Shown piece by piece: positions 2,054 through 50,227 of a stretch of 64,000 nucleotides of DNA. Positions within the stretch are counted from its first letter, which is position 1. Each line of letters begins with the position of its first letter. The stretch spans positions 3,193,396 to 3,257,395 of the forward strand of contig FN649737.1 of the NCBI GenBank assembly GCA_000310025.1, read 5' to 3'. The notes under the pieces are model-generated. The model did no database searches, was not told the DNA's origin, and was given only the letters and a program-made list of their open reading frames with translations. The translations under genes were made by a program, and so were the position numbers. Source of the DNA: Ectocarpus siliculosus. Taxonomy: Eukaryota > Sar > Phaeophyceae > Ectocarpales > Ectocarpaceae.

Positions 2054-2386
2054 ATGGCGTCGCCCAGCGCCACCATCTCCAGCGAGGGTATGCGCCGTTT
2101 GACGGCATTATGGCGCATTTCCCCGGCTGGCTGTCACTATTTCGCTCCCTGGTGCACGAAGCCGGGTTGGGAAAGGTCATGTCTGGCGACGAGACTGCAC
2201 CAGCTGCACTTGGCGCCGATGCTACTACATCCGAGGTCGCGGCGCAGAAGAAGATGGTCGACAAGTTCAACAAGAAGAACGGCAAGCTTTACACTCGTCT
2301 GCTGCTGGCGACATCGGATTGCGCCAACGGATACGCTAGCACAGCGTCCCAGGTTGTGCAAACTTATGGGCCGATTTTGACTGCGG
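2054..2386 (+). pseudogene. Copia gag N-terminal fragment
   Basis: The frame opens MASPSATISSEGMRRL near 2054. After a frame change near 2105 it continues as FPGWLSLFRSLVHEAGLGKV and KKNGKLYTRLLLATSD. This is the N-terminal Gag arrangement of Copia elements, where a short acidic lead is followed by a W-containing helical segment. The frame ends abruptly near 2390 where sequence homologous to the middle of the polyprotein (zinc knuckle, protease, integrase) should begin and reverse transcriptase appears instead. This marks the internal deletion. Confidence 0.6.
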
Positions 2387-2398
2387 AATTCGGCAGCG

Positions 2399-21431: not shown

Positions 21432-26640
<5,209 letters not shown>

Positions 26641-27020: not shown

Positions 27021-30000
27021 ATGAAGGCTCCCAATATCTACAGAGCAGTCATTGCCGCAGCAGCACTCAGTAGTAGCAGGTTCGATGGCACTGCTGCAGA
27101 CGCTGAGGACACACAGGAAGAAGAGCGATCAGCAGATGCAGCAGTAGAATCAGCAGAGGCCGTGGGGCTACGATGTCCGGTAGCAGTGCCGTGCAAGCTG
27201 GAGATGGGAACAGCGTTCGGCGATCCTTGGCTGAAAGCGGAGGACGGCGAAATCGGCTACTTTGAGGTGATTTAGTTATAAGCTGCAGATAGAGTCAGCT
27301 CGTTGGTATATTTGCCTTCAAGTTAGGGTGCATGCTGTCCGAGAATGAGGTCCGTCGGTGTCTGCACTACTACTGCTGTAGAGCGCCGACTCTGTGTAGA
27401 TTACTGGATGGTCGCTTTCCATTGCATGTAGGGGCGTCCATGCCCACCAGTGGACCATTCTGCATCATGCTTCGGTCGCCTGGGGGGCGGTTGATGGTTG
27501 TCAACAATCTCTCCGCTTCTCCCGAAGAGTAGCATCTGGTTTCATATTCAGCTTCTGTCGATACTTGTCGACGGTTGATGCTGTCGTCGTATTGAGAATC
27601 GTCGTCTGTCAGGCGAAGAAACGGCACTACAGGTGGTCGCAAATACCTCGCCAACAGATAAGTGTAGGCTTGAGCACTGCTGAATGTCGCACGCAACAGC
27701 AGACACACAGATGTCGATCCGGCATATGCATACGGAAATTGACAAACGGCGACCACGCCCAATACTCAAAAGCACCGAACTGAAGGCATGGACGTCCAGT
27801 AAGCAAACAAACTAAACGTTCGTGCGCGTGACCAAAAAGCAAGTGTATAGTGCCGCCTACCTACGGGTTTGGAGGCGTGTAGCGCGAAAAAGAGGGCGAG
27901 GTGTACAGCTGTAGCTTATTGGGCTTTGGGACAGACACATTTGTGGGAGATGAAATAGTTGAAGACATGCGTACCGGCAGAAACTACAGTAGAAAGGCGG
28001 TGACCCAGGCTTCCAGAATATAATTACTATGCAAGTGATGCAACCACATGTCATGCATGGCCTGGGAACAGCAGTCGTCGTCAGGCACCTATACTTCAAC
28101 AAATTGAGCTCCCCGCGCCCATACGGCGTGACCGTCCATGAACGGAATGTGCCATACTATTTATGCTCAGTCCGCGGAACCCCCCGTTGCAGCTGTCAGT
28201 TCCATTCGATTCGAGAAAAGTATAGGGGAGATGTGAGGGCGATCGCCTCCAGTCCTTTGGATCAGGAGATATGGTTAATTTGAGCTGTCTCGAGACTGGT
28301 TTAGTAGGCCACCGCCTCTTGTGTGTACCATCGGAGATTGGGTCGTGAGGGAAGCATGAATTGTGTTCAAGCATACACTGAAAGAAGACTAAAATTCGAA
28401 AACCGTGTCGGAACTGCAAGTTGTCTCTGTTCTTTGTTCCCCCGCCCGGGCGCGTTAGCTCAAATCCCGGGGCAAATTGAACGTACCCAGATATTGCTTT
28501 TCTCCCTCTTTCGCAACCCCTGTTGCGCTATATCTCCGACCCGCGCGAAACCACCACCGGACCGCTGGTTTGTGCCGAAGGTGGCCGGCACTCCACAAGT
28601 GCAGCCCTCGGAAGTGATCATTACGCTGGCCTACGGCGACGTCGAGACGTACGCGAGCAGTTCGGGGCGGGAGCCGACGCCCAGCGAGTCCGACTGGAGC
28701 GGGGGAAGGGTCCTCCGCCTCCCCGGTTGGTCCGTCCCTCACGAGGGGGACACCGTGGTGGTGATGGTCAAGGCCACGGGTACCGCCGGCGCGCTGTACA
28801 GGGTTCTGGCGGCGAGCGACGAGGACGTGCTGCGGCTAGAGGACGGCATGCCGGTGCAGATGCTCCAGGACGCGTCCGAGATGCGGTGCGTGAGGGGCGG
28901 GAGAAACCTCGTGGTTGCGTGAGATGCGGTGGGGTCTTGGGGATGTCGTGTTTGGTGGTATGCATGCTGCTGTTGTAGATGAGACGTCTCGCGGAACTGT
29001 TGGCGCTGTCTCTATGGTGGCTGTTGTGGGTGGCTGCTGTAGTAGTGTGGCGGGAGTAGTCGCAGGGATGGTCGTCGTAGGAGCCTTGGAAGATGAAGTT
29101 GTGGTTGCAGTGGTGGTGCTGGTGGTGTGCCGCAGTTGTAGATAAGAAGGACGGCAAAACTAGGATATCGAACACGGAATGCGGTTATGAGATGAGACAG
29201 GGAAAAACCGAGTCCACCAAGTCCTCAGTGCGCACACCCCCCTCCAGTTTTTCTACAGGCATAAACAAGATTCGCAGCATGCAACCTGGTACTGGCGGGC
29301 CCGTTGAGTTTTTCTAAACTCACAATGCTGATGTTTTCCACACGACGGTCCGCACTCCTTCAAGCAAGAAATAAACAGGCCATAAGCAATTCGTATCGTA
29401 AGTGCGGCTGTTGCCATTGTCATTGCTGCTCCCTTTACGTTCAAAACCACCGTTATCTATCTGGTACCTACTCCCAAGCGCTACTTCAACCTTCGCAAAG
29501 AATTGTATTTTGGGTGCTGGAAAAGTCGTTGCTGTGGTCGTAGCGAAAGCAGAGATTGAAGGCGGTGGCGACCGTGGTCCGTTGCCCTTGCCTTGGAATT
29601 CTGGCAGGTACTTCAGCATTGCTGTTGCAGATAATGCAACGGACCTCTTGATCTCCCTCGACCCCCAATCTGGAGATCCTGACATGTGAGTTGTTGTCCT
29701 AGTTTTTTGCTCTTGGCATTGGAGGCGTTACCTCTGCCGTTGTTTGTTCCGTTGCCATTGATTGCTGGTGCAGCTGCTGTGTAGTGCATATAGGGCATGG
29801 ACGTAAACACTCTTGAACGATGCAAGTATAAAACTAGTTCGATGTTAAGGCCAATTTTTCAGCCTGGCCAGAGCAATTTGTTGTACAACCCCCCGACCCG
29901 TGTGTCTTGGGAGGGCCCTTCTGAGAGACAGTCTCTGCTCAACAGAGTCGTTCTCGTGTGTCGAACCTAGCACTTCACCCTTGTTTTCTGGCACCAACCG

Positions 30001-31579
30001 TCCCGCGGCAGGTACGTGTCGCCCGAAGATCCTGACGGGTTATCTCTGCCTTCCAAGCAGAACTTCACATGGCAAGCACTCAGCTTCGGGAAGGACACGC
30101 TGCACATGCAGGTACCGCTCGTGACGCCCAATAACATCACAACCTCTGCGACGATGCTGATTCTCTCTGCCACTGTTTAGTCCAAGAGGTTTATAGATGT
30201 TTCAGAATTCCTTCCACGGGAACCACCAGCATTGTTGTATTTCTGAAAGAACGTTACACAAGAATGCAGCTCAGAGGAGGTGGTATCAGGCGTCACGTAA
30301 GATCAGGGGTTGCGGTCGCGGTGTGCTACCAACGTGGCGAGCGGCCGAACGCCTTTTCAGTTATTTTTTTCTTTCCATCCCACCTGTTCTGAATCCCCGT
30401 GGGTCTACAGCATGCACGGTGATGAACACCGCCCCCCCCGCGTGCCCCGTGCCCGGTGCAGGCTGAATCCTTGTCCGAGTACTGCACTCCCGGGACGGAG
30501 GACAACGAAATTTGCACCTACTGCATCGGAGTTGAAGCAAGGACGAACTGCAGCTATACCATCAAGGTGTGTTTATGAGCTCGCCCGTCAAGGTGTGGTG
30601 TCGAGTCTTCTCTGTGATACGTTGCGGTGCTTCTTGTCTGTCGTGGTAGATTCACACCGGCTCTTGGCTATAACGCAGAACAACTTCTTTAATGGTCCAG
30701 TCGGCGAGACTCGAGAAGATGCTGCTTGCCGTAGGTGACATGGCGTAAGATACCACACCCCATGGAACGATTTTTGATCAAGTGCTCCACGACAAAGAGG
30801 ATGCACAAATCAAACGAAACTCTTTCGGAAAGCTCTCGACAATTCGGTACCCACCCCGCCATTTTCGGCACCGCCAATCTGTGCGCTGTGGAGCAACTGA
30901 GTTTCGAAAATCGGCCCAGGGGGTGTGGTATCTTATGTCAACTTGTCCGGTACTACGAGAAGACCTTCTCTTGGACACCGGTGGTTCTTCATCTGCCGTA
31001 GCTGTTGCTGCCTTCTACCCCGATCTTTTGCCGAGCTTCTCTCAAAGCTGGTAGAGATATCAGCGAGGGCTAGAGCTGCCCAACTTCCTGCCCGACTTGA
31101 GCGCTTATTATCGTAGTGACCAAACATGCCAATTTTGTACTAATACACTGACCCCCCCCCCCCTATCCCACCCCCGCTCCGAAGGCTTCTCTTAGCAGCG
31201 GGTGGAGACATCCGCAACAGCTGCTGCTCGGGAATCATCCGCAGTCCTCTTTCCTCGAGGAGGGCAACTTCGATTACTACGCCCTGCTCATCACGCCAGC
31301 GCCCGAGGAGAATCCCTGGGAGAGCATTGTCGTGACGACGACACCTACGGATGGAGGGCAGCAGGTGCGTCGTGCAGAACTACATACTCCTTGTTTTTTG
31401 CTCTTTGGACCTCGGATATGTTGTTGTGCTACTCCGTTTGTGGCAACGCATGAGATCATGTTTATTCTATGCATCATTGTTCCTGTAGCTGTTGATAAAT
31501 CTGAACTGTATATTTCTTGTGTGCTGAGGACGTGCAAGTTAGTTGCGATGGTGGCTCTCAAAGTTGCGCTTGTTGATGT

Positions 31580-31625
<46 letters not shown>

Positions 31626-33020
31626 AGTGTACTACTGCTACGCTGTTGGCGATACATGATGTTTGTTGTTGCTGCCGACGCCGGTGCACTATGTTGATGC
31701 ATGGCGCAGCATTTTGTCGTAGTGCTCTATTGGCAAGAAACACAGGCACACTGTCTTTCGCGTTTCGATAATGTCCTGTTGTTGAGCAACAAATCTCACT
31801 GTTTCCACAGACTAGGCATGTAGCAAACTGGATTATGCCGCATTCAACGAAACCCATCCTCTGTCAGTTTCCACACGCTACCGTAGTCGCTGGGTCCAGC
31901 TTCAGTCCCCGTTGTTTTCATCCCTGGACACACTACCGTAGTCGCTGGGTTTCCAGCTTCCGTTCCAGTTGTTTCCGTGCCCCTCATCCATCCCATTCCA
32001 CATCCCGAAGAACTCCATCCCCCGTCTGCTGGAACCCGCCCCCCGATCCCCTGGGTTTCCATCCCGTATCCCCAGGACCTGTACGCCACCGCTAACCGGT
32101 CTCGCGAGCCCGGGCCGGAAGACTACGACGTGAAAAGCAGCAACTGGGTCGGCTCGTCGACGCTGGTGTTTTCGGAAACGGCACCCGGGTAAGGCAGCGT
32201 ATCATGTGTGTGCTGCATAGCTTGCGTCGCTGGTTCTCTGGCCACTCCGGGTGGGCAGCCAGTACGATTGTTGTTTCCGTTGTGGAAGAAATATTTATGT
32301 GGCTGTCGGTGTCACTGGTTTTTGTTTCTCTTGTCACCGTCGTCGTTGTCGTTTTCTTTGTTTCGTGTTCACGGTGCACGTCGGGGGGTCCTCGTGAATA
32401 CAGCTGACCAATTTACCGGCGCCTAGACGTCGCCACCAATTTTGAACGTCTTCCTTTCTCCGAGACACGGGTGTAAAAAATCCTCTTGCGTTTGCCTTCT
32501 TCTTGGCATTGCTTTTCGTTAACTCGCTTTCTTCATCACATGGAAGATAAAACCCTTGTTGAGAACCGATTCATTGAAAAAATATGTTCGTCTTTATCCC
32601 AGCTTCTGCACCGACTGCACCATCTACGTGGGCGTTTACGGCTACAAGAAGGGTGGCTACTCTATCGTAGCGAGCCAGGGGCTGACTAGGCTGCAGGAGG
32701 GGTTCCCACAGCAGGGGCTCGTGGGAGGGGAGGACGATTGGAAGTATTACGAGTTCTTCAACCCCCCAGGGCATGGCAAGTCCATACAGGTAATGAGCGC
32801 GTGCGGTAGAAGCAGGTTGTGCATCAATGGTTGCATGGTTTGTTTTCCTTGAATGTCCCCGTGTACATTGCAAGTCTTCTTGTGGCCAACCGTTCTCCCT
32901 GCTTTGCCCCGTCTGTATCTGTGTTCGGCCCTCTCCCTCTCTCCCTTTCTCTCCCTCTGCTTGATACTGCCTTCTGTCCCTCTGCAACCCCCTCTGTCAT
33001 CCCCGATCCCCTGTGTCTGC

Positions 33021-33081
<61 letters not shown>

Positions 33082-36000
33082 CTATGTCTTCGTGTATGTC
33101 TTCATGTTGCCATTCGCTCTCTTTCTGCCCCCCTCCCGTATCGCCATCTCCGCCGGTGTTTTGCTGCTATACATTTGTGTGGTTCTTGTGCGATGTGATG
33201 TTTGACACCACGAGAGAAGGTGGTGGCAACGGCCCTAACCGGAGATCCCGACATCTACGTCACCGTAGGGGGCAGCGATCTCCCGGGGCCGAACAACTTC
33301 TACTGGATGGGGGGCGCCACGGGTAAGACGGCCTCCTGTGTAGCAGTCGTCTTTGTTGCTGCTCTTGTTAGCGCTTATGTGGCCGCTTTACTGTCGTCGT
33401 CGTTGTTGCTGCTCCTATATTAGCGCTTTTGTGGCCTTGCCGTCGTCGTTGTTGCTACTCCTATTAGCGCTTATGTGGCCTCTTATTGTCGTCGTCGTTT
33501 TTGCTGCTCCTTCTAGCGCTTTTGCGGCCTCTTATTGTCGTCGCCATTGTTGCTGCTCCTTCTAGCGCTTTTGTGGCCTCTTTACCGCCGTCGCCGTTGT
33601 TGTTGCTCCTATAAGCGCTTATGTGTTCTCCTATTGTCGTCGTCGTTGCTGCTACTCCTATTGGCGCTCTTGTGGCCTCTTATTGCCGTCGTCATTGTTG
33701 CTGTTCCTAGCACTTTTGTCGTGCATCGCTTGTGCCTGCTGCAGTCTGCCGGTGATCGTGCTACCTTGGAACACAGTTCGCTGGTCGCAAGCTACACCCC
33801 TGATTTAGCATCGCCTCCGCCGCACACACTTTCTGACGAGTCCGGAGCCTTGTCTATGCTCATATGTTGTTTTTCTCATTTTGTTTGTTGCTGCTTCGAA
33901 AACAATACCGTAAAAGGAGCCGATTTCATCGACATCTCTGCGAGCGACCAGCACTTCTGCGACGACTGCGCCTACCAGATAGGCTTGACCTCCGCCGCCA
34001 ACGCCTCCTACACCGTCTCAGTGTACCGCGGCGATGAGGGAAGTGAGAGACCAACAAAGTCCCCTCTTCTTGTTCTTCTTTCTTTTTACCTCGCTCTCGC
34101 GTGTTTTCCCTTCTATTTCTCTTCGGAGTTAGTTGTTCGCTTTCAGGAAAGATTCCTTAGTCGCCATCTCGGTGTAATAGTCGCAGCGGAGAGCGTGCTG
34201 TGAGTGTTCGTCCGTCGTTTCTGGCGCCATCGTGCACAGGTCTCGGTAGATGTGTTTTACGTGTGATACCGGGTGACAGGGTGGAGGAGAGTACACGGGC
34301 AGGTTTTGAGAACTCATTATGTCAGCTTTCCTCTTATGGATTTCTGTCTTTTGTTTCTTACCAAATGTTAGGTCTTAGCTACAATGAGTTCTAGACTACC
34401 AGTCGACTGCAACACTTTTTGTTCGTCCGAGCTGAAAAAAATAGAAAGAAACGGGTCGCAAGCTGTAGGGTATGTTGGTGGAGAGCGCCGCGCCTCTCAC
34501 TCCTCTCCGGGGGACAGTATACGACCCAGCAGGACTCTAATGTGCGGACAGAGATGTACTGCTGTGTGATGTTTCTGTAAGAAGAGTGCCACGAAACTGT
34601 TTCCTGTCGTTTTCTCTGGTTCCACGCGTAGGAAGACAGCACTGCCGTTTGTAGGAGATCCCACAGACGGTACGTTTTCTTCTCTGATGCGGCCAGTATC
34701 GTTACCCGGCCACACTCGCTCAGCCTCCGTCAAGCTGATCCCCCCACCCCGTGCCCCTCTTGCTTCCCCGCACCTGACGGAACTGTGTTGCCGGACCGGA
34801 CCGCGGAACGATGCTCGGACCGATCACGCACGGAACGGCCCGCGAACGCTCGGAACGCTTGACGTTTTTCGACACGGAACTGCGGACCTCGCTCTGACGC
34901 TCCGTACCTTCGCAATCGCACTCACGCACACATGTTGGTATGCGTACTCCCCGTGACCGCCGGTACGCGCACTCCCCCTGACCACTGGTCCAACATGACG
35001 GCGGCGGCGGCGGCCACGGCCACGGCCACCTTCTTGACCATACCGACACTAAAATAACAAACGCGAAAACGCAGCGACGCTGCTTGTCCACGGGCGTCCC
35101 CAGGCGGGCAAGGTCGCGGCCAACGGCATGCGCTACTACCTCCTGAGGCCCGAGAGCGATACGACCAAGCTGACGGTCACGCTCACCAAGTCCATCGGGG
35201 AGGGAGACCTGTACGTGGTCCGGAGGCCTGCGGGCGGGGAGGGCGAGGACACTGCCGTCATCGACCCGCATGACCGCGCAACTTACAGGCATGACGACGT
35301 TCTATTGCGTTTGTGTAGTTTTGTGAAGAAGACTTATTCGTGTCGGAGTTGTGTTGTCGTCGTCGGTTTACCGGTATTGGGGATTGCTGTTGTTATTGTT
35401 GCTGTTACAAAATGACGTTGGATTTTCTCTGTGTCAGGGTATGGCGCCAACCAGCGTCCGTTGCCGACGGCCTCACCCGATCTCACTCTAGCCTTTCCTC
35501 CACCCCGGGCCTATCGAATAAATTTTACGCAAAACCCAGATGGACGTCGAGAGGTCAAGCCCAGGACACCATAGTCCTTGACGGTGATGGAGGCACCGCG
35601 GATCCCTATCTTATCGGAGTTTCCGGGGTGACCGATGTTACGTTTTCGGTGGTCGGCACCTTCTCGCAGGTTAGTAGCTGTCGTTGTTGTGGGTGTGGGT
35701 GCTGTTGCGTTCCCCAGGCGTGTGGACCGGTCGCATGTTGGTTGGTTGTCGGAGTTTCCGTGGTGAGCGATGTCACGTTTTCGGTCGCCGGCACCTTCTC
35801 GCAGGTTACGTGGTTGTCGTCGTCGTTGGTGGTAGTGATGGTGGTGGTGTTGGCCAGAACGGTGCTGTTGGTGTGGGTGCTCTCGCAGGTTGGTCGTTGT
35901 TGTTGTTGTTGTTGTGGGTGGTGTCGTTGTTAGTGTGGATGCTTGTTGGTGTGGGTGCGGTTGCCTTCCCAGGCTTATGGACCAGTCGTCCTACGCATGA

Positions 36001-39000
36001 GCCACCCCCGTCTCATCGAGGGAGGTCGTCCGCGACTGGGTTAGTTGGGAAATGCCTCGTGTGATGGATCACTCACGCCGTCCATGTTTTCGTCACCATC
36101 TGCTGCGACACGTTTTTTGTACGCTGTCGTGAAAAGGCAGCGATTTCCATTTTTGGCATGGCACATATCTCCAAGGCTCGCACCGCTAGCTGTACTTTTC
36201 ATCTGTCGGCATCCACTCGCATTCCTTTGGGCCTCACTTGTCCACGCCCCTTCCCCTCTCTGTCATTGTTGGCAGGGCGTCTCTATCCTGCAAGAGGGAG
36301 TTCCACAGAGGCATACCCTCGAGGCAGGGAGTTCAATGGCGTTCGGGTTCCTCGTAGACCAGGTGCGCGTGTGTGCTACCCCCTTAAGGTATTTCCCCGT
36401 CCTAAATTTTCGGTGTTGCAGCAAGACGACGCTACCACCAGCCCTACTGCTGAGGCCCAGAAATTGCGACGTTTCGTTGTTCGAAACATCACCTACAATC
36501 GAGAAGTCGGTGGCATCGTCGGCGTTGTGTAGTAGCCGGGGCTGACTGGATGGCAATACGACAGTGGTCGGTCTTGGTGAAACAACTCTAGCTGGGATGG
36601 TTTATTTTGGCGCGGGCCCGAGGGGCTTACGGCGGAGCCCGGATAGACAAGGTCCAGCCTCCGGATTCTGAGTGCTGCAAAAGTTGATGACGCAACACCA
36701 TTCACCCTGAGGGTTCTTTCTAACGAGACCATGATATTTCATGTGTTGTAGTAGTTTATTTTCACGAAGACCGCGGCGCTAGCCGCCTGCCCGTCGAGTA
36801 GGCCCCCGGGAAAAAACGCAAACTGTTTGGTGTGCGTTGCACGATTTGTATTGTTGTTGTTGTTGTTGTCGTCGTCGTCTTCACGATATAACCCGTTCCT
36901 CGGGGCGCGTATTAATATTTTCTCAAAATCCGAAAGCCCACAAATCCCATACCTCAGCACATCCCGCGTACTGCGGACCGTTGGTTACCGCGCCGCAGGA
37001 CAATGTGGACCTGCAGCTGACCGTCACTCCCATCCGTGGGGACCCCGCCCTGTACGCCGGCATGGGCGCCACGCCGAGTTGCGCCGCGCCTGAGGAAAGC
37101 GGGGAGAGCGGGGATGCCGAGGGGGGGGGCGAGGACGCTGGCGTCTGCTCCGGCTGGTGGGTGATCCTCGAAATGCTGCCGTAGACACGTGTTTGTGCAT
37201 GCTTCCTTTAAAACCGTTCTTGCGCTACTGTAGGACAGAAGTAGCACTGCTGTTGCTTTGAACCCGTTTCGCGCTCTACTCGTAGCACTGTTGTTAGGTT
37301 TGTGGCCATTCTTCACGCCGTTCGGCCGCCCTCTCACACGTTCTTGTGCCCTCCCCCCCCCCACCAACCCCCCCCCCCCTTAACCCACACCCCCCCAACC
37401 CCCACCCCCNNNNNNNNNNNNNNNNNNNNNNNNNNNNNNNNNNNNNNNNNNNNNNNNNNNNNNNNNNNNNNNNNNNNNNNNNNNNNNNNNNNNNNNNNNN
37501 NNNNNNNNNACGCGGCAGGGGGCCCCCCCCGGGTTTCCCCCGCCCTGGGGAAAAGGGGGAAAAGGGGGATTCCCAGGGGGGGGGGGGGGGCCCCGGCTTT
37601 TTCTCCGGGTGGGGGGGGGTCCCTGAAAATGCCCCGGAAAACACGTTTTTGGCCATGTTTCTTTAAAACCCTTTTTTGGGTTACTTTGGGAAAAAAAAAC
37701 CACTGTTTTTTTTTGAACCCCTTTTCGCCTTTTATTGGTACCCTTTTTTTTGGTTTTGGGCCCTTTTTCCCCCCGTTTGGGCCCCCTTTTCCCAGTTTTT
37801 GGGCCCCCCCCCCCCCCCCCCCCCCCTCCCCCTCAGGACCTGGTCATGTACGAGAGGGAGGCGCCGCAATATCCCTATCTCCCACTTACACCCGTGCAAC
37901 GTACTTGAAGAGCGACAACAGGGCGATTCAACCGAAGATGGCGATGGTGGCAACGACGCAATCGACGACGCCGACGAAGTCGACAACGGGGAGGGAGTGC
38001 CGACCTCTGGCGTCGAGGTCTCAGACAAGTGTGCACCGTCCAGCTTCGGTGTGGGCATGATGTTCATGACTGTCGTGGCCCAGGGAGGCATGGACGCGAG
38101 CTTTTCTGTCATGGCCTCCCTTGTCGGGAAGGTGCGTTGGTTCTGCTCTTGTCTGGTCCTGCGTTGCGGGTTCTGGTTCCGTCCTCGGGTTCGGTTAGAA
38201 CGTTCGATTGTGTATTCGTGGGTCTTTTGGTGGTGGCGGCGGCACCCCAAGGAGAGTGGGTGCAAGCGCACAATCTGTCTTTTCGTGATTGTCGTGAAGG
38301 TACGGTGGTAGCGTATTTTTGGTTCGTTGCTCTGTCATGGCTCTGCTTGAGTTCTGCGAGTATTTTCACGACTTGGAAGCGTGGCCTCGTTGGTGTTTTC
38401 CCCGGCGACCTGTCGGGTATGACCCCTCCCCCTCCTGCGCTCGCCTTTCCTGGTTGAAACCCTACTCCCCGGTACGCTGCCGTGTTTCCGCATCCAGCAC
38501 GGTCGTAGCGTTGCTGCATCTTCGTGATCACCTCCTGTCGGCCTGAGATCTGGGAGCACGTGACCCAAGCGAGTCCTATGTTGCAATGCCATCTCCCAAT
38601 GTGTACCCCATGCCGACAAACGCGTGTCCTACAGCCCCACCTCGTAGTTTCTACTGTTCCCTCTCCTCCCGTCCCCTCCGGCCGTCTGTCCCTCTCACGC
38701 GGGATGAAAATGGCCCTCTGATTCCACTTTCGAACGATTGAACGGCCCCGTCTCCTCGCAGGGATTTATGTATCCGTCGTTCGCGTTACGCTTCTGTCTG
38801 CATAGCCCGAAAATCGCACGGCGGCAACAACCACGTACCTAGCAATGCACGACTCCCCTCCCTGTTCTCCGTGGACACGCTTGAACCCTTTAGCATGTGA
38901 CCCTGGTGACGGGCGTGCCCCAGCACGCCGTAACGTCTCCCATGGTGCCCTGCGGGGAGGCGAAGCAGACGGAACAGGGCCCGTGCTCGGCGGAGTACGA

Positions 39001-42000
39001 GACGTCGAGCGTGATGCAGGAGGCCCTGTTCGTCTTCAAGGTAAGATTCGTGGTTTTTCTCCAATCTCTCTCTCTCACCTTCCCTCTCCAAACCATGGGA
39101 TCAAGATGAATGTCCCGAGTTCGCCGAAGGGGGTCGATTGTTGGTTGCGGGAAGTACGGCCAGTGCTCTTCACGATGTACGTATGGTTCCAGCAAGTTCG
39201 GTTCCGCGTCGTTGGAACGTCGGAACGTGAAGATTTTCTCAGCATGGGAGGGTGCGATTTCATACGTCGAACACAGTACGGCCGTTCCGCACTTGGAAAC
39301 AGGACGCCTCTCCTCCTCTATCGACATAGGCCGATTTTCCATACTTGATTGCATCCATATCTCCCTAGTGCAAGAAAAGAAAGAGCTGTCGAAGGCGGAT
39401 GAGTTGTGGAACAATGCGTTGCCGACGGCTCTCCGAAAGCGTATCGTTCGGTAGTTTTGGCACCCGTTTATTTGGGGAGAAACGAAGCGATACACCACCA
39501 GCCCGAGGGGGGGGGGGGTGTTGAGCAACACCGGAGTAATATTTTTTCCTATTATATCCTTCCGTTCTTGAACGTGTTCTTGAAGTATTTATCTAGCAAG
39601 TATTGCGGCGGTGCTGGGCTCCGATGCTGACGACCACATCGGTTGTCCTTTGCAGTGTGCTGCCTGCACAACTCGTGAGGTTAGGGAAGGAACAGCACTG
39701 AAAATATGGCACACGTATACTACGCACGCCCGAACAGGTGGGGGCGGGTTCGGTAGCGGCCACGACCGGGTTCTCATTGAGCCTCGTACCGGAATGCGCC
39801 CCGGGCTCGTGCGGCGGGCCAACCTGCGCCTCCGGCTGCCCCAGGAGGCCGGCGAAGGTGTACGTTAAGTCTTGTCCTGAGGACAAATGCCTCCCCGAAG
39901 ACAGGTTCCCTAGCCAGGGGAGCCGCGACAAAGAGGTATGGGGCAAGCTAAATCGAGCGTTGAGTCATCACGTTGTTGTTTTATTTTGTTGTTGTTGTTG
40001 TTGGTTCTTCTTCTTCTTCTTCTTCATGTTGCCTTTGTATTGTAGTATGCACAGTTGGTTTCTGATGGTACGGTGGTGGTTCTTGGTGATGATCTTGGGT
40101 TAATTTTGCGGTCGAGTCCCCGCCTCCTCGCCCCCCCTCCCATCCTTATTCTACCCCCGCGGCTGTGTCTGGAGATTCAGTGTTCGTCCGTCAATTGTTC
40201 TGCTCTGGGTGGAGATAGCGTGCTCGTGTTCTTGGAATTTCGTGACGACTTTTAATCACGGATGGCCCGGATGAATCGCTCTTTTTCTTGGTGGTATGCA
40301 TAGTTGTCTGGGTGAACAACGTGCGATTGTGTGTGCGTGGCGAACAGCCAACCGCCTGCTTGCGCTACTCTGTCATATCATGAGGCTACAGCTGAGTTTC
40401 TGATATCGCTCCTCGCCGTGTGCGAACATTACAAAGTCGTCGGTTTGGTTGGGTCCCCCCTTAAAAATATCGGTCCCCAAAATGGGATCCGTCTCAATTG
40501 GTGTTCGATCGCTTGCGTGTACGTTTTCCCCTGAAATTTCCCCCCAGCCTCCTTCCTCTCGAGGAGGCGTGGTTAACGGCCTAACCGCTGCAGGCATACA
40601 AATCATGAGTGCCCCCCCCCACACACACCCCAAACACGCCCACGGTGCCCCAACGAAGTTCGAGGTGTCCTCGGCCGACGGGTCGGTTTTCATTGCGGAC
40701 GGACGGGGCTCCGCTGGTGACGGAGTGTTTTGCGTCCCCTCCAAGCACGGGGCCTGCGTGTACTACATCGCCGTGACTGCGGGGGGAGAGGACGAGCCGG
40801 CGATGCAGCTAACAGCCACCGCCGATGTTCCCACGGGGATTTCCTTGGTAAGAGCGTTTTGTGTCTCTCGTTTTTTTCTCGTGCCACCTTTTGTTTCCTA
40901 CGCAAATCTGTTCTCTCCCTAGGCCATGACTCTGGTAGAGGCGGCATCGATCGGCTTGGAGGGCTTAGCCATCTCTCCCTGAGGGCCGAACCTCACGTCT
41001 CCCTCCTGCGGTACGCCGTGTCTTTAGTTTTGTCGCAGCAAGGGCACTTCTCCTTTTTCTCGGTTCAGTTTTTCTCTCAAAGTTTAATTTGATAACAGTC
41101 ACGTACGCGTCCTGCCTATCCAGGAAGAACCCCGATATGGGTAAGACTTCCTCTTCTGCGCTGCATGCATGCCTTGCATTTTGACGCGGTTTTTCGGTAC
41201 CTTGAAGTATCAACATGAGTCAAAACAGAAAACTCCATGTAGCACCTAAAAAAAAGGGCTTTCCGGGCGTTCCTTGAGGGCCGCGGGGCTGCAAGGGGTT
41301 GGTTGCTGGTCGCCGTAAGGGTGTACATGCCGCTGTTGCCAAAAACTGGCGAGTTTTTTATCGCCTGTAGGGTGTAGATGCCGCGGTTGCCAAAACTGCT
41401 ACTTCATGTTTGATGGTACCTGTTATCTTGCTTCCCCCCCTGCTTTGCTCGGAATTTCTACTGCTGTTGTCTCGGGATAACTGCAGTGTTTGCAAGCATA
41501 CGGATGGAGTGGTTGTTGTTGTGTTCGATTCGGAACAGCTGTTCGTACCGTGCTTCCCAGTACGTGTCGCACTTGTCCAACAATTCAGACGAGAGATGTC
41601 TGCTTCCGATGGTCCTAGACTTGACGCAACGAACAAGACCGGGAGAAGGGTGTGTCTCATGAATACCCAGGATCGAAGTTTCGACCTTCACGCACCGGCC
41701 AAGGATTGTCGTCCAATCAGAAAGTGACAATAGCGAACTTGACCAATGGGAAATCTGCGGGCAGCCTGATGGCTTTCTCGCGATGTGCTTGGGGGCTCAC
41801 TGGATCCGCTTGGGATGGCTCCGAGCTCTATGTCTGCCATTGCCTTGATTTTGAGGTCGCATCGGATTGGGCTTTAGTTGCGAGCGCCAGTTTGAAGCGG
41901 GGAATGATTCTTGGCGCGCCACCACTTACCCACCAGCCCATATTTTGATGTGCACAAAAAATACGTGAAAAAACAGGTGGTTCCGTGTATCGGAGACTCG

Positions 42001-45000
42001 AGTCTCCCGGACGGTATGATCGTGACCCCCGCCAACCGCGTGCCACTGTCGGGTATGAAGCTGTACGAGCTCTGCTCCAAGGGAGAGGTGGACTTTCAGG
42101 TAGGTTTTATTGATGCCTCTCAGCCCCGTCTCCGCAATCATCCCTTCCAAGCGGCAACCACCGCATGTCCACCTTCCTTGTCCCCTTGTGCTGGTTGATG
42201 CATGTCTCCGTGGGCCCTTTGTTCTTTTCGCCGAAACTATCGTACATGTACTACCCACAACGTATTTTGTAGATGTAGGCTGAACCAAGTGCCTTGCCAA
42301 ATGTTTCGTGCATAAGCGAGAACTGTTGATTGTTATTTGCCCCCAAGCAATTCTGGTGCGTTCTCTCTCTATGGAAGCTTGATTGTAATCGCATTCAATG
42401 GCCTCCGATGTGCCTTGGTCGAAAAAAGGGGGTCCTTCGAGGCGTGCAAGGGTCCCGTGGACGTCCACACGCATATGACAGAATTGTGTGTGTTTTCTTG
42501 ACCGATCCAGATGTCTTGTCGGGTCTTGATTCCAATCGAGAGTACCCGTGCACCCCCGCAAACGAGCTCGTTTGCTTGGTTCAGGTCTCGATTTATCTTA
42601 CTCGATTTTTGCCTCTCAAGCACCCAACCCTAACATCGCCGTGAAATAGTAAATGTCCTGCAATTCCCCTCGATGTGATGTCATATTTTCACCCTTCATT
42701 TTTTCCTTGTGGTGATCAACGTAGGTGTCCGTCGAGTCTTGTAGGGGCGAAGTGGAGCTCTTCGTATGCGACGACACGTGTCCAGGCCTCTACCCCTCCA
42801 AGAAGGTGCGTTGTCTCGAACATCTCGTTAAGGTTAGGGGTAGGATCTAGCATCTCGTTATGATCCTCGACACCAAGCGGTTTTCGTCGCTTGTGCGAAT
42901 AGTCCGCGGGGAATCGGAACCTTCCAGAGTAGATAGAGACTCCCTCGAGAATGAGATGGTAAATAACAAAAGGCATGGGTGCAAACTACCCTCGTTCGAT
43001 AAATTAGAAGGGGTTGAGAAAACGATGACATTCTGTGGTGGCGTCACAACAAACCCCCACAAGGGAGGAGAGAAGGTGTAAAATATGTCGTGAGTGGAAT
43101 ATATGGCAGAAACATCAAGAGGGCCCGGGGTACGGCGGAAGCATGAAGAAGTAGTCGGCTTTTGGTGGTGCCTCGGCTAGCTCCCGAAACTATGCTGCTG
43201 CTCTTTGTGTTCAAATGGTCCCATGACTTCGGCAATCCTCGAACGAGAACGCTCTCACCGTCCGTCCGCTCCCCCCCCCCCCCCCCCCCCTCGGTAGCCC
43301 GGCGAACGCATGGTGTATACATACATGTCCGATGGCGAGATGATCTGCACGGAACACCAGCAGGATACGCACTGCCAGCCTCTACCCGGTAGTGATCGCA
43401 ACAAAGAGGCCTCCGTCACGGTGGAGGCGGGGGATCCGGCGGAAGGGACGACGTCGACGCGGTCGTCGACGTACTTTGTGGGCGTGGGCATGCGTCCGGG
43501 GCAAAGGGCAGAGGACCAGGAGCACCTCCTGAGGGTGAGGGGGGGGGGGGGGGAAGCCTGTTGCTGTTCGTGTTGGTGCTGTTGTTTTAGTCGTTGTCGT
43601 CGTTTTCGGCCGTTGGTGCTGTTTGGAGGGCGGGAGAAAGGTGGGGGAAGGGATTTATTTGACGAGGAGCAATACCGTACAAGTGAGAGTGAGGGAACAA
43701 GGCTGTACTGCGGGAGACGAGAAACTGGCCTGGAATCGAGATGGTCCGGGAAATAACTTTATTTTGTCTTCTTTCTTGTCGAACTCGGGTGTGTGTCTCG
43801 TCCGCATCCCCAAAACGAACCACAGGTTAACGTCATGGGAGAGGAGGGGGTGCCAATATCTCCGTCCCTGTCTGCGAAGTTCCTGCCGTCTGGGTCGGAC
43901 GCGTCGCGTGCCGTGGTCGGCGGGAGAGAGGCTACGGTGGAGTGGTGAGTCTTCTTAGCTTGGTATGCTCACACCGCGAGTACATCGGGAGAAAGGCTTT
44001 TAATCGTCGGATCCCGCGATGTTTAGTGGGGGCATCTCCGTGCTAATTGGTCTCCGTGCTTGCCTTTGTTTTTTGGAGTGCACAATTGTTCGTTTTTATG
44101 GGGACACCAAAGAGTTAGGAAAACTCCTTACAATCTGTGACGACGCATGTCATCAACATCGAGCTACAAGAGTGCGTGAAACATAGCACTCCCGTTACCA
44201 CATCAACAACAGCGTTTGTATCGTAATGCGAAATTTTGATACCGTTGCAACGCGATCTGCATCTATGCGCCGATGAACGCAGGGGAGGAGCAACCCTGCA
44301 CATGCCCAAGTTGAGCGGACGTCACCCATATGAGGCGGAGGACCGCGACTGCGGAATATACTGTTCGTACGAGGTGTACGCCGTGCCGACAAGGTGAGGC
44401 ATCTCGAGGTGTAGTACCCCCCGACCCCCCTCCCGCCGGATTTCCCATGGCACATCTGGTCTGGCACAGCACTCGCAAGGATGATGAATGACGAGATTCT
44501 GGTCCATCCTTGTGAAACGTAACCTGGGCCAGCGAAAATTCGGCATATCGCTTCGTCCCGGCACTGTAGGGATGCGAGTTCAATGGTCTAACGACGGCGG
44601 AATGCGTTTACATGAGTACACCCTCCGTCCCCCGCCGGGTTATCTTCAATTGAATGATTTTGCAAGAGTTCTCGTCCCCGGTGTGGGTGGACTGTAGCCC
44701 AACAAGCCACGAACGTGTGCAGCTTTGCAAAGCCTGGTGTCGTGTGGTCCAGGGTGGCACAATGACGAAATGTTTTTGCGAGCAGTATCGCGATCCTCGA
44801 GGATGGATTCCATCCTGGCCACATTGGGCATAAATGCCGGAGGAAATACACAGGGACAAGGTGATCGATCAGTTTCTCCAAAACCTTGACCAGCTAACAG
44901 ACCAGCCCAGCCTGAACGCCCCGGAAGCCACGAGGGAATTCACCCAAGCTATCCTTGAAGCAGCGCAGTCAGTGCTGCCGGCAGAGACCCGGATACCACG

Positions 45001-48000
45001 CATGCCGGAGTGGTGCAAGAGCCCGGAAACGAAAACAGCAGTCGTGAAAGCCCTTGCCGAGCGAAGGAAAGCACGCCGGAAGATGAAAATCGACCAATAT
45101 CCAGCAACATGGGAAGCACTCCGGACCACTTGCAAGGCAGTACAACTGCAGTCGACGACGGAATTTATGCCCACTTGGAGAAGCATGTGGCTGGGATTTC
45201 CATCCTCGAGGATCGCGACATGCGGGGAGTGTACAAATACCTCAAGAGCTCGGTAGGCCTAGACGGGAAGCAGACAGGGGGACAGCAGCCCGTCAAAGAC
45301 GAGAATGGTGTCATGCTGAGGAGTAAGGATGAGATTCTTCCAATGGTGGGCGAGGTTCTTCGGCTCTCTACTCAACGCTAAATCCCGCACGTTGAACTCA
45401 TCCATCATCGAGGAGGTAAAGCAACAACCGAAGGTACCAACCACTGAATGCTCGCAACACCTGGAGTCCGCACCAACCCTGGAGGAGACTCGGAGAGCAG
45501 CACGGGGGATGAAAAACTGGAAAGCGCCTTGGTCATGATTCCCCGCCGGTAGAACTACTCAACATCGACAACGTTGACGAGCCCATAGTGATCAAACGCT
45601 TCTACGCCATCCTCGTCGAAGTGTGAAACGGGAGGGATTTCCCGCAGGAATGGAAAGATGCCACCATAAAAAGGCACTCTACAAGAAAGCGGACCGATCC
45701 AACAGTAACAACTACAGGGGGATACACCCTATCCCTTCTGTCGCATGGGGACAAGGTGCTCCTGAAAATCGTCGCTAACCGTCTCAGTGATTACTGCGAA
45801 AAACACGACATCTTGCCGGAAGAACAGTGCGGCTTCCGACCTGGTAGGTCCACCGTCGACATGCTGTTCGTCGTCCGACGACTGCAGGAGCTGGCACGGA
45901 GGCGGGGTATCCCGCTGCACATGTGCTTCGTCGACCCCCAGAAGGCCTATGACGCAGTCGACCGGGAGCTGCTGTGACCAGTGCTGGCCCGAGTGGGGAT
46001 CCCGGAGGAAATGATCGCGGTCGTCCGCCAGTTCCACGGCGGCATGCAAGCTCAGGTATGCGTGGGCGACGGGGAGCTCTCTGGCTGGTTCGAGGTCACC
46101 CAGGGACTGCGACAAGGATGTGTATTGTCACCACTGTTGTTTAACATATTTTTCGAGGCAGCGCTCGAGGTAGTTCAGGTACGATTCAGCGAAGACGACG
46201 TTATCCTCAGGAATCTGGTATACCTCCAGGAGGAGACTGGGACGAGGGTAATGACACCACTGGGACAAGTTCGGAAGGCGGTGTGGGGTATGCTGTACGC
46301 CGACGACGCTGGGTTCGTATCGAGATCGGCCGAAGGTCTGGCGAGGATGATGACCATTGTCGTGGAAGTGTTTGGAGCGTTCGGACTGACAGTATCGGAG
46401 AAGAAGACAGAGACTCTCCTGATGAAGGTGCCGGAGAAGAAATCGAAGAAGGGAGCGCCGCCACCGCCACCCCCACCACCTGCGGCACCGCTGGTGATCG
46501 AAGCAGCAGGCCAGAAGTACGCCCAGACAGCGGAGTTCCGATATCTGGGTAGTCGGGTCAGAGAAGATGCTAAAGTCACGCAGGAGATCAACCAACGGAG
46601 CAGAGCAGCGTGGGCGTGCCACCTGGGAGCTCTTCGACGGGCCGACAGCACCGTGGGGACTAAACGTCCGGCTTCTAAAAGCAGAAGCGATGGAGGCCCT
46701 GCGGTACGGATGCATGACGTGGGCCCCGCGCCGCAAGCACTACGACCTGCTGACGAGTACACACTATGGGCTTCCGCTATGGGTTATCGGTTCCCGCCGC
46801 ACGCGCGGCCAATAACGGCAGCTCTCATACGCCCAAGCCCTCAAAAAGGTTGGGTGCCAACACGTGGAGGCTACTGTCCGACTACGGCGACTCCTGTTTA
46901 CTGGGGCATTGGCCAGACAACCGGTCGGGCGACTCCCGAAGCAATTGATGTTCGGACATATCGTTGGGGGGGAACACCCAGGCAGCGGGCGCCCGGAAAA
47001 GAATTGGGTGTTACGCTTGAAGGACGACTTCGTAGAGTTCGGTGCCAATGCCGAATCCACGGATGACGACCTGAGGACGTTCTGTTACCGCGTGGCTGCT
47101 GGCCTGTTGCAGCGAAAGTGGAGAGCGGTTGCCGTGGTACAGAGGGGTGGTAGAGGGAGCGGTGAAGTTCATGGTCAAAAGGCGCAAGGAGCAAGACAAA
47201 CTAAGCAGGCTACGCGCAGAAAAACACCGGACAGAAGACCAACAAGACAGCCGACCGGGGGGGGAAGGGCACACGGGCGGGGGGGGGGGCGTCGAAAGAT
47301 AGGAGGCACGACTGCAGCCGAATAGACGCCAGAACGGAGATGGCTGAACGGATAGAGAGATATGTTCCGGACTGATGATGATGGAGGCGACGGCAGGAAT
47401 ACCAGCCGGACGTATCCCTATATTTTCCGTCGTATCGCTACCCCCCCCCACCCCCCCCGCAGTGCCCCCGATGTTGTGATGTTGTTGTCGTCGAAGTCAT
47501 TCATGTGTTTGGTGCTTGCCTACTTCGTTGTTCCGGTGGAGCGTTGGAAGACCTGTCTATTTTCCTCTTTCTTTCTTTTTCTTTCTTTCTTTCATCCCTT
47601 TTTGACCGGGGTCCATCGTATCCCGGTTAGCTTTCTTTTTCGTTTTGGAAAAAAAAGCGCGTTTTCGAGGGCTCTTCCATTTTTACTTGATTTCTAGAAA
47701 AGTGTACCCCCTTTTGGGCGTAGTTGGCTTGTGACCACGGAAGGTCGTCCGCATCAATTGGACCTTTCAACAGAAGGTACTGAGCGGAGACGGGAACGGT
47801 TTTTAACGTGAAGACAACAGCAAGAATGCCGAGCTTTCTAAGGATCGATTCCACGACATCTCTTCGATCGAGGTATCTATTCGCCATGGAAATATGGCGG
47901 AGTATGCCCCGACTGTCGCCCCGCGTGTCCACGTAAGATGTGGCAGTCACAACCAAACCCACACGCACGAAATATGCACTGCTATCGGCATGTTTCGGGT

Positions 48001-50227
48001 TCTTCAATTGTGTGTTCCCACCGCTGCTGCCGTTGCTGTTGAGAAGACTGAAAGGCGAGTTTCCTCACACGGCTTGCGGGCTGGAGTCCCTCAGCAACCG
48101 CTTGAAGGTGGATGTCGTGTACAAGTTCGTCGGAAACGCCAAGAATCCCGGGGAGGTGACGCAGGTGAGCCCAAAGAGAACACGTGCTTGAAACGGCAAA
48201 CTGTTGTGACGATTACGACCATGGCAGGCATCAAGAGTGGTCCGTCCTCACAATAGAGGCAGCAGATACCACGCCACGATGGCGTTATTTGTTTGGCGTT
48301 CGATGACATTATCAGACGGTGTAATGGTAGGAGGTGTGGTTACTGTCCCACGCATGTCAGCGCATTCTAACACAGCCCAGCTACCACGGGGATGTGATAA
48401 CGAGCGAGTTGTGGGAAATGGGGGGTGAGTGGTATCTTTGCGGGTTAAAAGGAATCGTTGTTGTCGCAATCCCCCTGCGGGCTGTGACACGTTAACGCAT
48501 TCAAGCGGGGGGTGATACCGTAGGCTGCATAAGACGTAACACCCCCTGGGCTGATGTTCAACGCTCGATCTCGTCGAGAGCCTTCCGAAGACGTATTATT
48601 CGAATTTGGGCATCCTCTTCGTCATGAAGTATGGAGCTTGGGGTGTGATATCGTATATTCAACATGATACTCTGAGGGCAAAGAAGTGTTTATGCGAGAG
48701 TGCTCTCTCTTGAGGTGTGTGTGAGATCACAAGGGTGGTGAAATCTCTCATGCAGACTGTTGCTGATTGCAAGGCGTGGCATTTCCACGTGGCGGTGCCC
48801 ATACGTATTTTCTTGCACAGACAAAAGACAGCGCGGAACCTACGAAGCGTAGATCGACCTGGGTAAACCAAAGCATGTTGGACTCGCGAATGTTGATAAT
48901 GCTAAACGGTCAGAACTAGATTCCAGACACCGGCGGAGCTACCCCATGTGCAAACGGAGAAGAAACACACACAGACTGACTGTCACAAACATGTGAAAGA
49001 ATAGAGAATATTGCCGACGGCGAATGGTCCATGTTGGTTCGAACCGCGGGGGTTTTTGACGCGACCTTACAATGTTGGCCTCCATGGCGGTGGAACTCAG
49101 ATGGCGGAGAGGGGGTTACGTGGTTCACTTGTCACCTTTGTAACATGTGACGTGATTCATCGTGGTATGTAGTATCGCGGAATTTCAGAATGTGGTAACA
49201 ACATCTTGTGTTACCCGTGTGATAAATTGGCGGGCGGCTCTGTAAGGGTCGTATCGTACGTGGGTGTAACATCTTGTCAATTACGGCCCTCATGCTCTCA
49301 GACGACGCTGCAAGGCCTGCGTGACGAGGTGCACTACGTTTTCGTGGTGGCCACTTGCGACTTTGTGTGCCTCGAGGCCCTGCTGCGCATGCAGTGCAGC
49401 CGGTCGCTTGGTTCGGCCCATTCTCCCTGCAAGCCTCAGGTGAGCTGACGGTGACAAGCAACGGCCGGGAGAGGACTCGTTGAATTCGGTTCCTTACAAA
49501 TATTTGTTACAAATCGCCATGCCTTGCCTCGGCAACATGTAGTACGAGCGAACAAGCTTTCAAAGAAACCAGAGGTAGTTTGCGCCGTCCTTCCAGGTGC
49601 AAGAAGGAAGAAACACTGCGCGCATGTTCCACTTACGCTGGAGCCGTCGCATTACAAGCGACCAGAAAGACCGCCGTCCCGACCACAATACTTTCGGCTA
49701 CACAACAAACAAATTGATATTGAAACCAGCGCATGTGGCGCAACGCTGCCCGTCCATGTTGACCTCCCTAACACCAATCTCCCCTCCCCCTCCCCGACAA
49801 TCGCTTCCAACAGAACGTCGTGTTCCCTGCGGCACACCTCGTGGCATCAAAGTCGGATCTCACCCCCACCACCACAGGGGACACCGGCAGCGGTGGCGGT
49901 AGCAGCAGCGGCTCGGAAACCACGCAGTCTCCGGTGTTCTTGATGGTAGCGCTGCTTGCCGTCGTCGGCGGGGTCTTGTATGCGCTCAACCGCCAACCCG
50001 CCGGCGGTAGCAGCACTAGCTACGCACCGGCACAGAGCGGTGGTATCAGGTGGCTAGGCGGCTGGGGCGCGAGTAGTGGGGGTGGGCGTGCGGCGGGGTT
50101 CGAGCTCACCGATCTGCAAAGACCGGGTCGAGGGGACGACGGCCTTGGAGAATTCTTGGTCGGGGATGGGAGGGGAAGGGGTGACGCGGAATCGGGCCCG
50201 GCGTACGCCAGCCTCCTGCCCGGATAG
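27021..50227 (+). CDS. Large type I membrane protein with tandem PPC-like extracellular domains, at least 26 exons
   Basis: Exons: 27021-27266, 28581-28918, 29608-29685, 30012-30111, 30462-30566, 31221-31364, 32076-32188, 32603-32789, 33220-33322, 33917-34042, 35104-35288, 35438-35669, 36276-36362, 36999-37156, 37837-38131, 38894-39040, 39738-39935, 40548-40847, 41977-42099, 42725-42805, 43298-43534, 43826-43944, 44283-44393, 48047-48164, 49302-49439, 49814-50227. Phase agrees at every junction except 34042/35104, where a small exon is unresolved. About 1,495 codons. The N-terminus (MKAPNIYRAVIAAAAL) looks like a short signal peptide. Repeats of ~120-150 residues share a pattern: L-x-x-G-x-P-Q, a YY/YF strand, a long beta strand, GDPD-x-YV, an aromatic turn (NFTW, NFYW), C-x-x-C, Y-x-I-G-V, N-x-SYT. 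This resembles bacterial pre-peptidase C-terminal (PPC) beta-sandwiches. Near the end comes a membrane segment (PVFLMVALLAVVGGVLYAL) and a ~75-residue Gly-rich tail. Ligand unknown; adhesion or wall contact is a guess. Confidence 0.7.
30748..30933 (-). mobile_element. Short inverted-terminal-repeat element (MITE), copy 2
   Basis: Ends are AGATACCACACCCC and GGGGTGTGGTATCT, flanked on both sides by TA (30746-30747, 30934-30935). It lies in the intron between the exons at 30462-30566 and 31221-31364. Inner sequence matches copy 1 in reverse orientation. TA duplication and short inverted ends suggest a Tc1/mariner-like origin. Confidence 0.7.
31577..31625 (+). repeat. GTT/GGT trinucleotide microsatellite
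   Basis: A run of GTT repeats followed by GGT repeats inside an intron of the large membrane-protein gene. Confidence 0.9.
33024..33080 (+). repeat. TC dinucleotide microsatellite
   Basis: About 28 perfect TC units in the intron before the exon at 33220. Confidence 0.9.
33344..33715 (+). repeat. Minisatellite, 44-52 bp unit, about 7.5 copies
   Basis: Units begin AGCGCTTATGTGGCC or AGCGCTTTTGTGGCC and end in GTCGTCGTTGTTGCTGCTCC-type sequence. It fills most of the intron between exons 33220-33322 and 33917-34042. It gives long open frames on the plus strand, but the reading is repeat-driven and not coding. Confidence 0.85.
35639..35810 (+). repeat. Duplicated 3' exon end and donor
   Basis: The last ~50 bp of exon 35438-35669 (GGAGTTTCCGGGGTGACCGA through TTCTCGCAG and its GTTAGT donor) recur at about 35751-35808 ending TTCTCGCAG|GTTACG. 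Both copies keep the same frame (DVTFSV-x-GTFSQ). A third fragment of the donor side occurs near 35880. Either donor could be used if the intervening intron were retained. Confidence 0.75.
37054..37826. other. Assembly artefact: N gap (37410-37509) flanked by a false duplicate
   Basis: Sequence after the gap (37510-37826) aligns base for base, in order, with 37054-37360 before it, but with runs of one base smeared and minor bases lost. For example GAGGAAAGCGGGGAGAGCGG becomes GGGGAAAAGGGGGAAAAGGG, and CTTTAAAACCG becomes CTTTAAAACCC. This is how a poorly called trace end looks. The true locus therefore probably has one copy, the 100 Ns are a placeholder, and the intron between exons 36999-37156 and 37837-38131 is shorter than drawn. 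Confidence 0.85.
44834..47325 (+). mobile_element. Degenerate LINE (non-LTR retrotransposon) in an intron of the large gene
   Basis: A 2.5 kb stretch in the intron between exons 44283-44393 and 48047-48164, in the same orientation as the host gene. It has the region before reverse transcriptase (ALAERRKARRKMK; SILEDRDMRGVYKYL), the reverse transcriptase, and the C-terminal part (EAMEALRYGCMTWAPRRKHYD; LFTGALARQP; GRPEKNWVLRLKDDF). Frame changes occur near 45165, 45340, 45700, 46650 and 46850. No apurinic endonuclease domain was seen, so it is 5' truncated. Neither target duplications nor a poly-A tail were delimited. Confidence 0.8.
45756..46640 (+). pseudogene. LINE reverse transcriptase with in-frame stop
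   Basis: Reads LLKIVANRLSDYCEKHDILP, EEQCGFRPGRSTVDM, CFVDPQKAYDAVDRELL, then TGA at 45975-45977 where Trp is usual. The same frame goes on: VTQGLRQGCVLSPLLFNIFF, and the catalytic LYADDAGF with YADD at 46296-46307. A proline run (APPPPPPPP) lies at about 46458-46490. It matches non-LTR reverse transcriptase blocks in order. The stop and the downstream frameshift make it inactive as written. Confidence 0.85.
48532..48653 (+). mobile_element. Short inverted-terminal-repeat element (MITE), copy 3
   Basis: Begins AGACGTAACACCCCCTGGGC and ends GGGGTGTGATATCG, flanked by TA on both sides. Inner blocks CGTCGAGAGCC and GGCATCCTCTTCG match copy 1. It lies in the intron before the exon at 49302. A further GGGGGTGATACCGTA just upstream (48508-48522) may be the end of a nested copy. 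Confidence 0.6.

Follow-up and report, generated by a model that had tools for sequence, protein, structure and literature searches.

The stretch of DNA considered here (the window) comprises 64,000 nucleotides from the brown alga Ectocarpus siliculosus (GenBank assembly GCA_000310025.1, contig FN649737.1, positions 3,193,396 to 3,257,395 of the forward strand); unless a contig is named, coordinates below are positions within it. Its + strand between 27021 and 50227 carries a predicted 22-exon frame of 1,272 codons, running from an ATG at 27021 to a stop that ends at 50227, with 0 internal stops. In order, the predicted protein consists of a weak signal-like start, modules M1–M8, a Ser/Gly/Thr stalk, one membrane span and a 79-residue Gly-rich tail. 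Five of the modules are homologous to bacterial PPC domains, which are best known as protein-binding tails of secreted proteases, and the explanation that we favor, with moderate confidence, is that the gene codes for a protein-binding, single-pass type I receptor with a PPC-type array. The gene is laid out as follows:

27021..27266, + strand: exon 1, with the start codon, a weak signal-like segment (AVIAAAALS) and the start of M1; the donor after 27266 scores 5.2
28581..28885, + strand: exon 2, the rest of M1 and the start of M2 (LEDGMPVQ); top coding score among the internal exons
29608–29685, 30012–30111 and 30462–30566, + strand: exons 3–5, the rest of M2, with GDPDMYV and C-x-x-C
31185–31364, 32076–32188 and 32603–32675, + strand: exons 6, 7 and the first part of exon 8, M3
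32691–32789, 33217–33322 and 33917–34042, + strand: the second part of exon 8 and exons 9 and 10, M4, the best PPC match
35075–35288 and 35540–35669, + strand: exons 11 and 12, M5; GC donor after 35288
36276–36362, 36999–37156 and 37837–38131, + strand: exons 13–15, M6 with an acidic insert
38894–39040, 39738–39935 and 40659–40847, + strand: exons 16–18, M7, Cys-rich and marginal
41977–42099, 42725–42805 and 43298–43534, + strand: exons 19–21, M8, marginal
43535..49813, + strand: the last intron, 6,279 bp, with a long interspersed nuclear element (LINE)-type reverse transcriptase fragment at 45978–47063
49814..50227, + strand: exon 22, with the Ser/Gly/Thr stalk, the membrane span, the 79-residue tail and the stop

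The 22 exon cores were chosen by eye from the three frames of the + strand, their codon frequencies were used in a splice-aware gene finder, and the final set of exons was curated. The resulting frame has a GC content at third codon positions (GC3) of 0.76, and a T content of 17% in the exons as against 26% in the introns. The initial annotation had counted 26 exons, with phases agreeing at all junctions but one. Only 22 are supported: the additional gene-finder exons at 43.8–49.4 kb were dropped, as they have no module score and weak sites, and several lie in or beside the LINE-type reverse transcriptase. An upstream first exon at 26268 was likewise not adopted on account of its weak sites, and gene finding over the whole window fused genes and was left unused. 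The phase clash, which lay at the M2/M3 junction, is removed by the acceptor at 31185; with this start for exon 6, all of the junctions (21/21) agree in the curated model. Since phase agreement had been imposed in making this model, we ran a phase-blind test that took, for every junction, whichever donor and acceptor had the highest scores. The phases matched at 17 of the 21 (P ~1e-5 if each match has a one-in-three chance), and these include the last junction, which spans 6,279 bp to the membrane-span exon. For 14 of these 17 junctions the donor and acceptor were the ones in the model, and for the other 3 a different site scored better; the test leaves the by-eye choice of exon cores in place. 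Exon 22 lacks an ATG ahead of the membrane span in its open frame and must therefore join an upstream exon, for which the PPC-like array is the nearest candidate; that the array and exon 22 lie on one transcript is inferred.

The introns carry repeats and a retroelement. The latter, the LINE-type fragment (RVT_1, E 5.6e-14), has 43 genome matches listed, its own copy included, at 70–100% identity. A minisatellite of 49-bp units in 7.4 copies occupies 33346–33709 in one intron, and at 35660–35810 (+) an exon has been partly duplicated, the next intron holding a diverged copy (VVGVSVVSDVTFSVAGTFSQ) of the last part of exon 12 (IGVSGVTDVTFSVVGTFSQ). The intron that separates exons 14 and 15 contains the 100 N of the window.

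The modules are 97–111 residues long as cut, and five of them, M2–M6, recognize each other. Leave-one-out hidden Markov models (HMMs), in which four of M2–M6 score the fifth, gave 41.0 bits for M2, 19.0 for M3, 43.5 for M4, 27.0 for M5 and 18.7 for M6, levels that no shuffle reached in 1000 trials per module. The motifs that the initial annotation had described as repeating along the chain indeed recur in these five modules. An HMM of all five scored M1 at 11.1 bits (one shuffle as good), M7 at 7.8 and M8 at 10.5 (none as good), whereas the joined tail pieces, at −1.4 bits, showed no homology. When 5,415 segments from a 264-kb six-frame set were scanned with the module in question left out of the profile, the best exons of M2, M4 and M5 returned at E 0.033, 0.012 and 4e-5, respectively, ahead of every segment from outside the gene. 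The shuffles and leave-one-out tests rule out chance or composition as the source of the likeness among M2–M6, which these comparisons identify as secure, true repeats.

Their relationship to PPC domains emerges from several profile comparisons. An HMM built from the PPC domains of ten bacterial plasmid loci scored M2 at 22.8, M3 at 8.9, M4 at 23.3, M5 at 13.7 and M6 at 14.0 bits, with 0 of 1000 shuffles of each as good, albeit with the best M5 shuffle close behind (13.3 versus 13.7). In the six-frame set its top four segments all fall in the gene, each alone at E 0.13–1.2. A joint profile of modules and PPC domains scored M1 at 11.9 bits (no shuffle as good), M7 at 7.9 and M8 at 8.4 (one shuffle each as good). 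Profile–profile comparison with hhalign paired 89 columns of the modules with PPC at 96.5% (P 7e-10, score 56.1). Restricted to gap-poor columns, the comparison scored 52.5, whereas 400 column shuffles gave 20.3 at most and the reversed profile 8.2. With gap columns kept, one shuffle of 200 in each of two series scored ~130, with six columns aligned where the alignment was printed. We take these scores as an artefact of the gap columns because none of the 400 gap-poor shuffles rose above 20.3. Against 177,635 PDB sequences, the five-module profile had a sole match at E ≤ 10, namely 2luw, a metalloprotease chain, at E 0.02. The fibronectin-III fold was rejected, as hhalign gave 0.2% against an fn3 profile made from eight same-genome stretches (of 15 fn3 matches listed), the two halves of which recognize one another at 98.5%. 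Searching the genome for Calx-beta gave one match, elsewhere.

The modules share with 2luw and the PPC domains of Pseudoalteromonas M4 proteases the motif order L-x-x-x-x-P, YY/FF, GDxDLYV and an aromatic-I/V-x-V near the end. They also share residues that in protease E495, whose PPC domains bind proteins, matter for binding, namely D26, D28, Y30 and Y/W65 (PMC3327674). By the author's reading of the module/PPC alignment, with the E495 numbers placed by spacing in a Pseudoalteromonas PPC domain, 15 of the 20 such positions are kept in M2–M6: M2 and M4 retain the full set of four, M5 has three, and M3 and M6 have two each. In contrast to bacterial PPC domains, those of the alga lie below the Pfam cut-off, are longer and are split by introns, and in M2–M4 a C-x-x-C near the C-terminal strands replaces the bacterial Cys pair. 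Other module queries than joined M2–M6 showed no PPC in Pfam, and an NCBIfam search found no relatives. Taken together, these comparisons lead us to conclude that M2–M6 are diverged PPC-type domains, that M1 probably is one, and that M7 and M8 possibly are.

Unlike the PPC tails of bacterial proteases, this array is tandem, protease-free and, by prediction, membrane-anchored; the whole protein has 0 peptidase families in Pfam at E ≤ 10. Residues 1175–1193 of 1272 form a hydrophobic span with a Kyte–Doolittle mean of 2.44, the next best 19-residue window reaching 1.36. The 79-residue tail ends in AYASLLPG, with YASL, a YxxPhi-type motif, seven residues from the C-terminus and LPG last. The initial annotation is accordingly upheld both in its membrane span followed by a Gly-rich tail and in its PPC-like modules on a predicted type I protein without a protease, the latter by the profile–profile comparison, the shuffle controls, the single PDB profile match and the span itself.

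Protein binding is the best-supported activity that may be predicted for such an array. We favor it because PPC segments of secreted bacterial proteases bind proteins: besides those of E495, a PPC-containing segment of a Grimontia collagenase binds triple-helical collagen (PMC6168687). Among eukaryotes, the closest precedent appears to be the CPBF family of hydrolase receptors from Entamoeba, of which E. histolytica has 11 genes. CPBF1, a membrane protein of 904 residues, has a signal sequence, a single span close to its C-terminus and a YxxPhi tail, and its similarity to PF04151 is low (2.3e-3). It transports a cysteine protease in the direction of lysosomes, binding the mature part of the protease in a carbohydrate-independent manner (PMC3465781). 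CPBF tails are 11–38 residues long and most, not all, end in YxxPhi (PMC3465781). CPBF8 binds lysozymes and hexosaminidase, and it requires a serine-rich region ahead of the span (PMC3285589). According to its authors, the family lacks identifiable homologues in other organisms (PMC3465781).

Compared by description only, the algal protein shares with the CPBFs its eukaryotic setting and a single span near the C-terminus, with CPBF1 a PPC-like similarity at the edge of detection, with CPBF6–8 a serine-rich stretch before the span, and with most members a YxxPhi-type tail motif. It differs in being the one gene found as opposed to 11, in its length (1,272 residues versus 904 in CPBF1) and in having several recognizable modules. 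The architecture, which the initial annotation had called unusual, is so, but it has a precedent in type I CPBF receptors, CPBF1 included with its weak PPC similarity. The predicted gene product would also resemble the alpha-integrin-like, fasciclin-like and WSC proteins of brown algae in being a membrane or matrix protein of a large alga (PMC8307928); the term PPC has 0 occurrences in that review. Within the literature covered (titles and starts of abstracts, with subscription papers outside), no algal PPC protein was found; papers on brown algae together with the PPC domain concern, by title, bacterial keratinases only, and those naming PF04151 yield one eukaryotic protein, CPBF1.

We also searched for relatives in the genome (189 Mb in 492 contigs, the gene lying on contig C12). 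Joined M2–M6 gave 15 matches at E ≤ 10, all inside the gene, one of them being the intronic copy of the exon 12 end. No M2–M6 paralogue was found by this six-frame search, and nothing by PF04151 against the six-frame genome, although diverged or intron-split copies could escape the former and intron-split copies the latter. A GDxDLYV-type DNA pattern has two matches in the 189 Mb and 0 in a reversed control; the match on contig C52 was discarded as it has no module context. Among 72,556 plasmids, the joined modules matched only one place, in Variovorax, at E 0.5, and a known PPC fragment matches the same place at E 3e-6. This is an open frame (L041, 145–1806) whose C-terminal PPC domain lies above the Pfam cut-off (40.5 bits, serving as our positive control) and for which no peptidase family is reported; PPC domains are therefore not tied to proteases even in bacteria. 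Searched back against the genome, the Variovorax PPC domain has two matches at E ≤ 10, M4 of the gene at E 0.158 and a frame on contig C25 at E 0.125, which we took for chance. The C25 region (around 4295375 of that contig) holds a 1,452-codon open frame whose product looks like a large extracellular repeat protein, with several fn3 matches within 65 kb on the same contig. The viral contigs gave one 17-residue match, judged to be chance, the phage collection no relatives of the modules, and the contigs of prokaryote genomes none with M4 or M2 as the query.

These data suggest the following mode of action. The gene product would be a single-pass type I membrane protein. On its lumenal or extracellular side, diverged PPC-type modules with a presumed beta-sandwich fold would form an array, five of them secure and up to eight in all. 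Several modules might dock on protein ligands via acidic and aromatic residues, as bacterial PPC domains do, while the Ser/Gly/Thr stalk, span and cytosolic tail would place and recycle the receptor. The closest working precedent would be CPBF as a hydrolase carrier to lysosome-like compartments, with surface adhesion a close alternative.

A prior issue is whether the array and the span belong to one intact gene. The region might instead be split into two transcription units, of which the first would code for a secreted PPC-array protein and end near 43.5 kb, while the membrane-span exon would belong to another gene. In line with this, the 6,279-bp gap contains the LINE-type fragment and nothing with a module score, and the joined tail pieces lack homology to the modules; however, the top-scoring donor (43535) and acceptor (49814) are in phase unprompted, for which the chance is one in three, and the span exon has no ATG of its own ahead of the span. 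We regard a split as unlikely. Still less probable, to the point of being a minor concern, is a decaying pseudogene with an array no longer translated. Very diverged modules, some weak splice sites, the GC donor and the intronic repeats and retroelement would suit such decay, but 1,272 open codons, a GC3 of 0.76, a low T content confined to the exons and best sites in phase at 17 of 21 junctions speak against it.

For a single intact receptor, the choice lies between two roles that we hold about equally likely, each a tentative proposal rather than a probable one. In surface adhesion or wall anchoring, the array would bind extracellular matrix or neighboring cells and the tail would act as the anchor. 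The type I plan, the long repeated ectodomain and the Ser/Gly/Thr stalk fit this role, as does the binding of collagen (PMC6168687) and protein substrates (PMC3327674) by PPC segments of secreted bacterial proteases. Yet nothing in the sequence points to the cell surface specifically, no lectin, integrin or wall-binding Pfam family matches the whole protein at E ≤ 10, and the five N-glycosylation sequons are all in M2–M4. The cell-surface location assigned in the initial annotation is one possibility only, a receptor of endosomes or the vacuole being just as good a fit. The other candidate, a cargo receptor sorting hydrolases to the vacuole or lysosome, is suggested by the PPC-like lumenal part, stalk, single span and YASL tail, which parallel the plan of CPBF1. 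Here the likeness is by description only and the plan may be convergent, and the tail is longer than in the CPBFs, with its motif not at the very end.

Several observations count against a PPC-array receptor as a whole. In Pfam, joined M2–M6 match one family, PF04151 PPC, at E 0.57 and with 11.5 bits against a cut-off of 25.9, and in the whole protein the PPC match is absent at E ≤ 10. PDB searches with single modules gave nothing for M5 and unrelated matches only for M4. The bacterial PPC HMM left M1, M7 and M8 at 0.4, 0.8 and 1.3 bits, with 60, 58 and 35 of 1000 shuffles as good, and as modules M1 is weak and M7 and M8 are marginal. In the leave-out scan M6 reached no better than E 2.8, with a segment from elsewhere ranking ahead of it, and M3 was absent among the 14 matches listed. 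An AlphaFold prediction for most of the M1 exon, run without an alignment, showed strands only, at a mean predicted local distance difference test score (pLDDT) of 46.1, and is unusable. The gene model has its own weak points: the one GC donor among the 21 donors (after 35288), the 5 of 21 acceptors that score below 1 and the 6.3-kb last intron. The short N-terminal hydrophobic stretch (best 9-residue mean hydropathy 2.3) reads, by hydropathy, as a weak signal segment. The tail, at 79 residues against 11–38 in the CPBFs, does not have YASL at its very end; the motif could easily be chance. It is also weak evidence for sorting, since mutating the corresponding YxxPhi motif left the localization of CPBF1 unchanged (PMC3465781). 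Beyond the Variovorax place, finally, the viral, plasmid, phage and prokaryote collections hold no convincing relative.

Around the gene, an HSP70 exon (21979–22773, − strand, E 1.4e-91) lies upstream on the opposite strand, and a Copia-type reverse transcriptase fragment (RVT_2, E 3.2e-17) lies at 2381–2788 (+). From 63700 onward (+), a stop-free frame of 6,014 codons extends to ~17.7 kb past the window, and further along the contig there are two more, one of 7,838 codons that begins with a run of N and one of 4,687 codons; any of the three may owe its length to low-complexity sequence or to stretches of N.

PPC domains are already known, as are their occurrence as protease tails and one PPC-like type I receptor family, the CPBFs. 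Beyond these, we raise as a speculative and rather doubtful extension that PPC arrays on type I membrane proteins make up a second, wider class of eukaryotic cargo receptors, to date known only through the CPBFs of Entamoeba, of which this gene would be an independent member in a distantly related eukaryote, of bacterial-type PPC origin and hidden from Pfam by its divergence. If the receptor reading is right, an accessory domain of bacterial proteases would also build the ectodomains of eukaryotic receptors, in genes unseen by Pfam-based annotation. With a PPC-based receptor in another lineage, one acquisition versus repeated acquisition would become testable, and for Ectocarpus siliculosus itself the gene would be a concrete candidate for work on receptors and adhesion.

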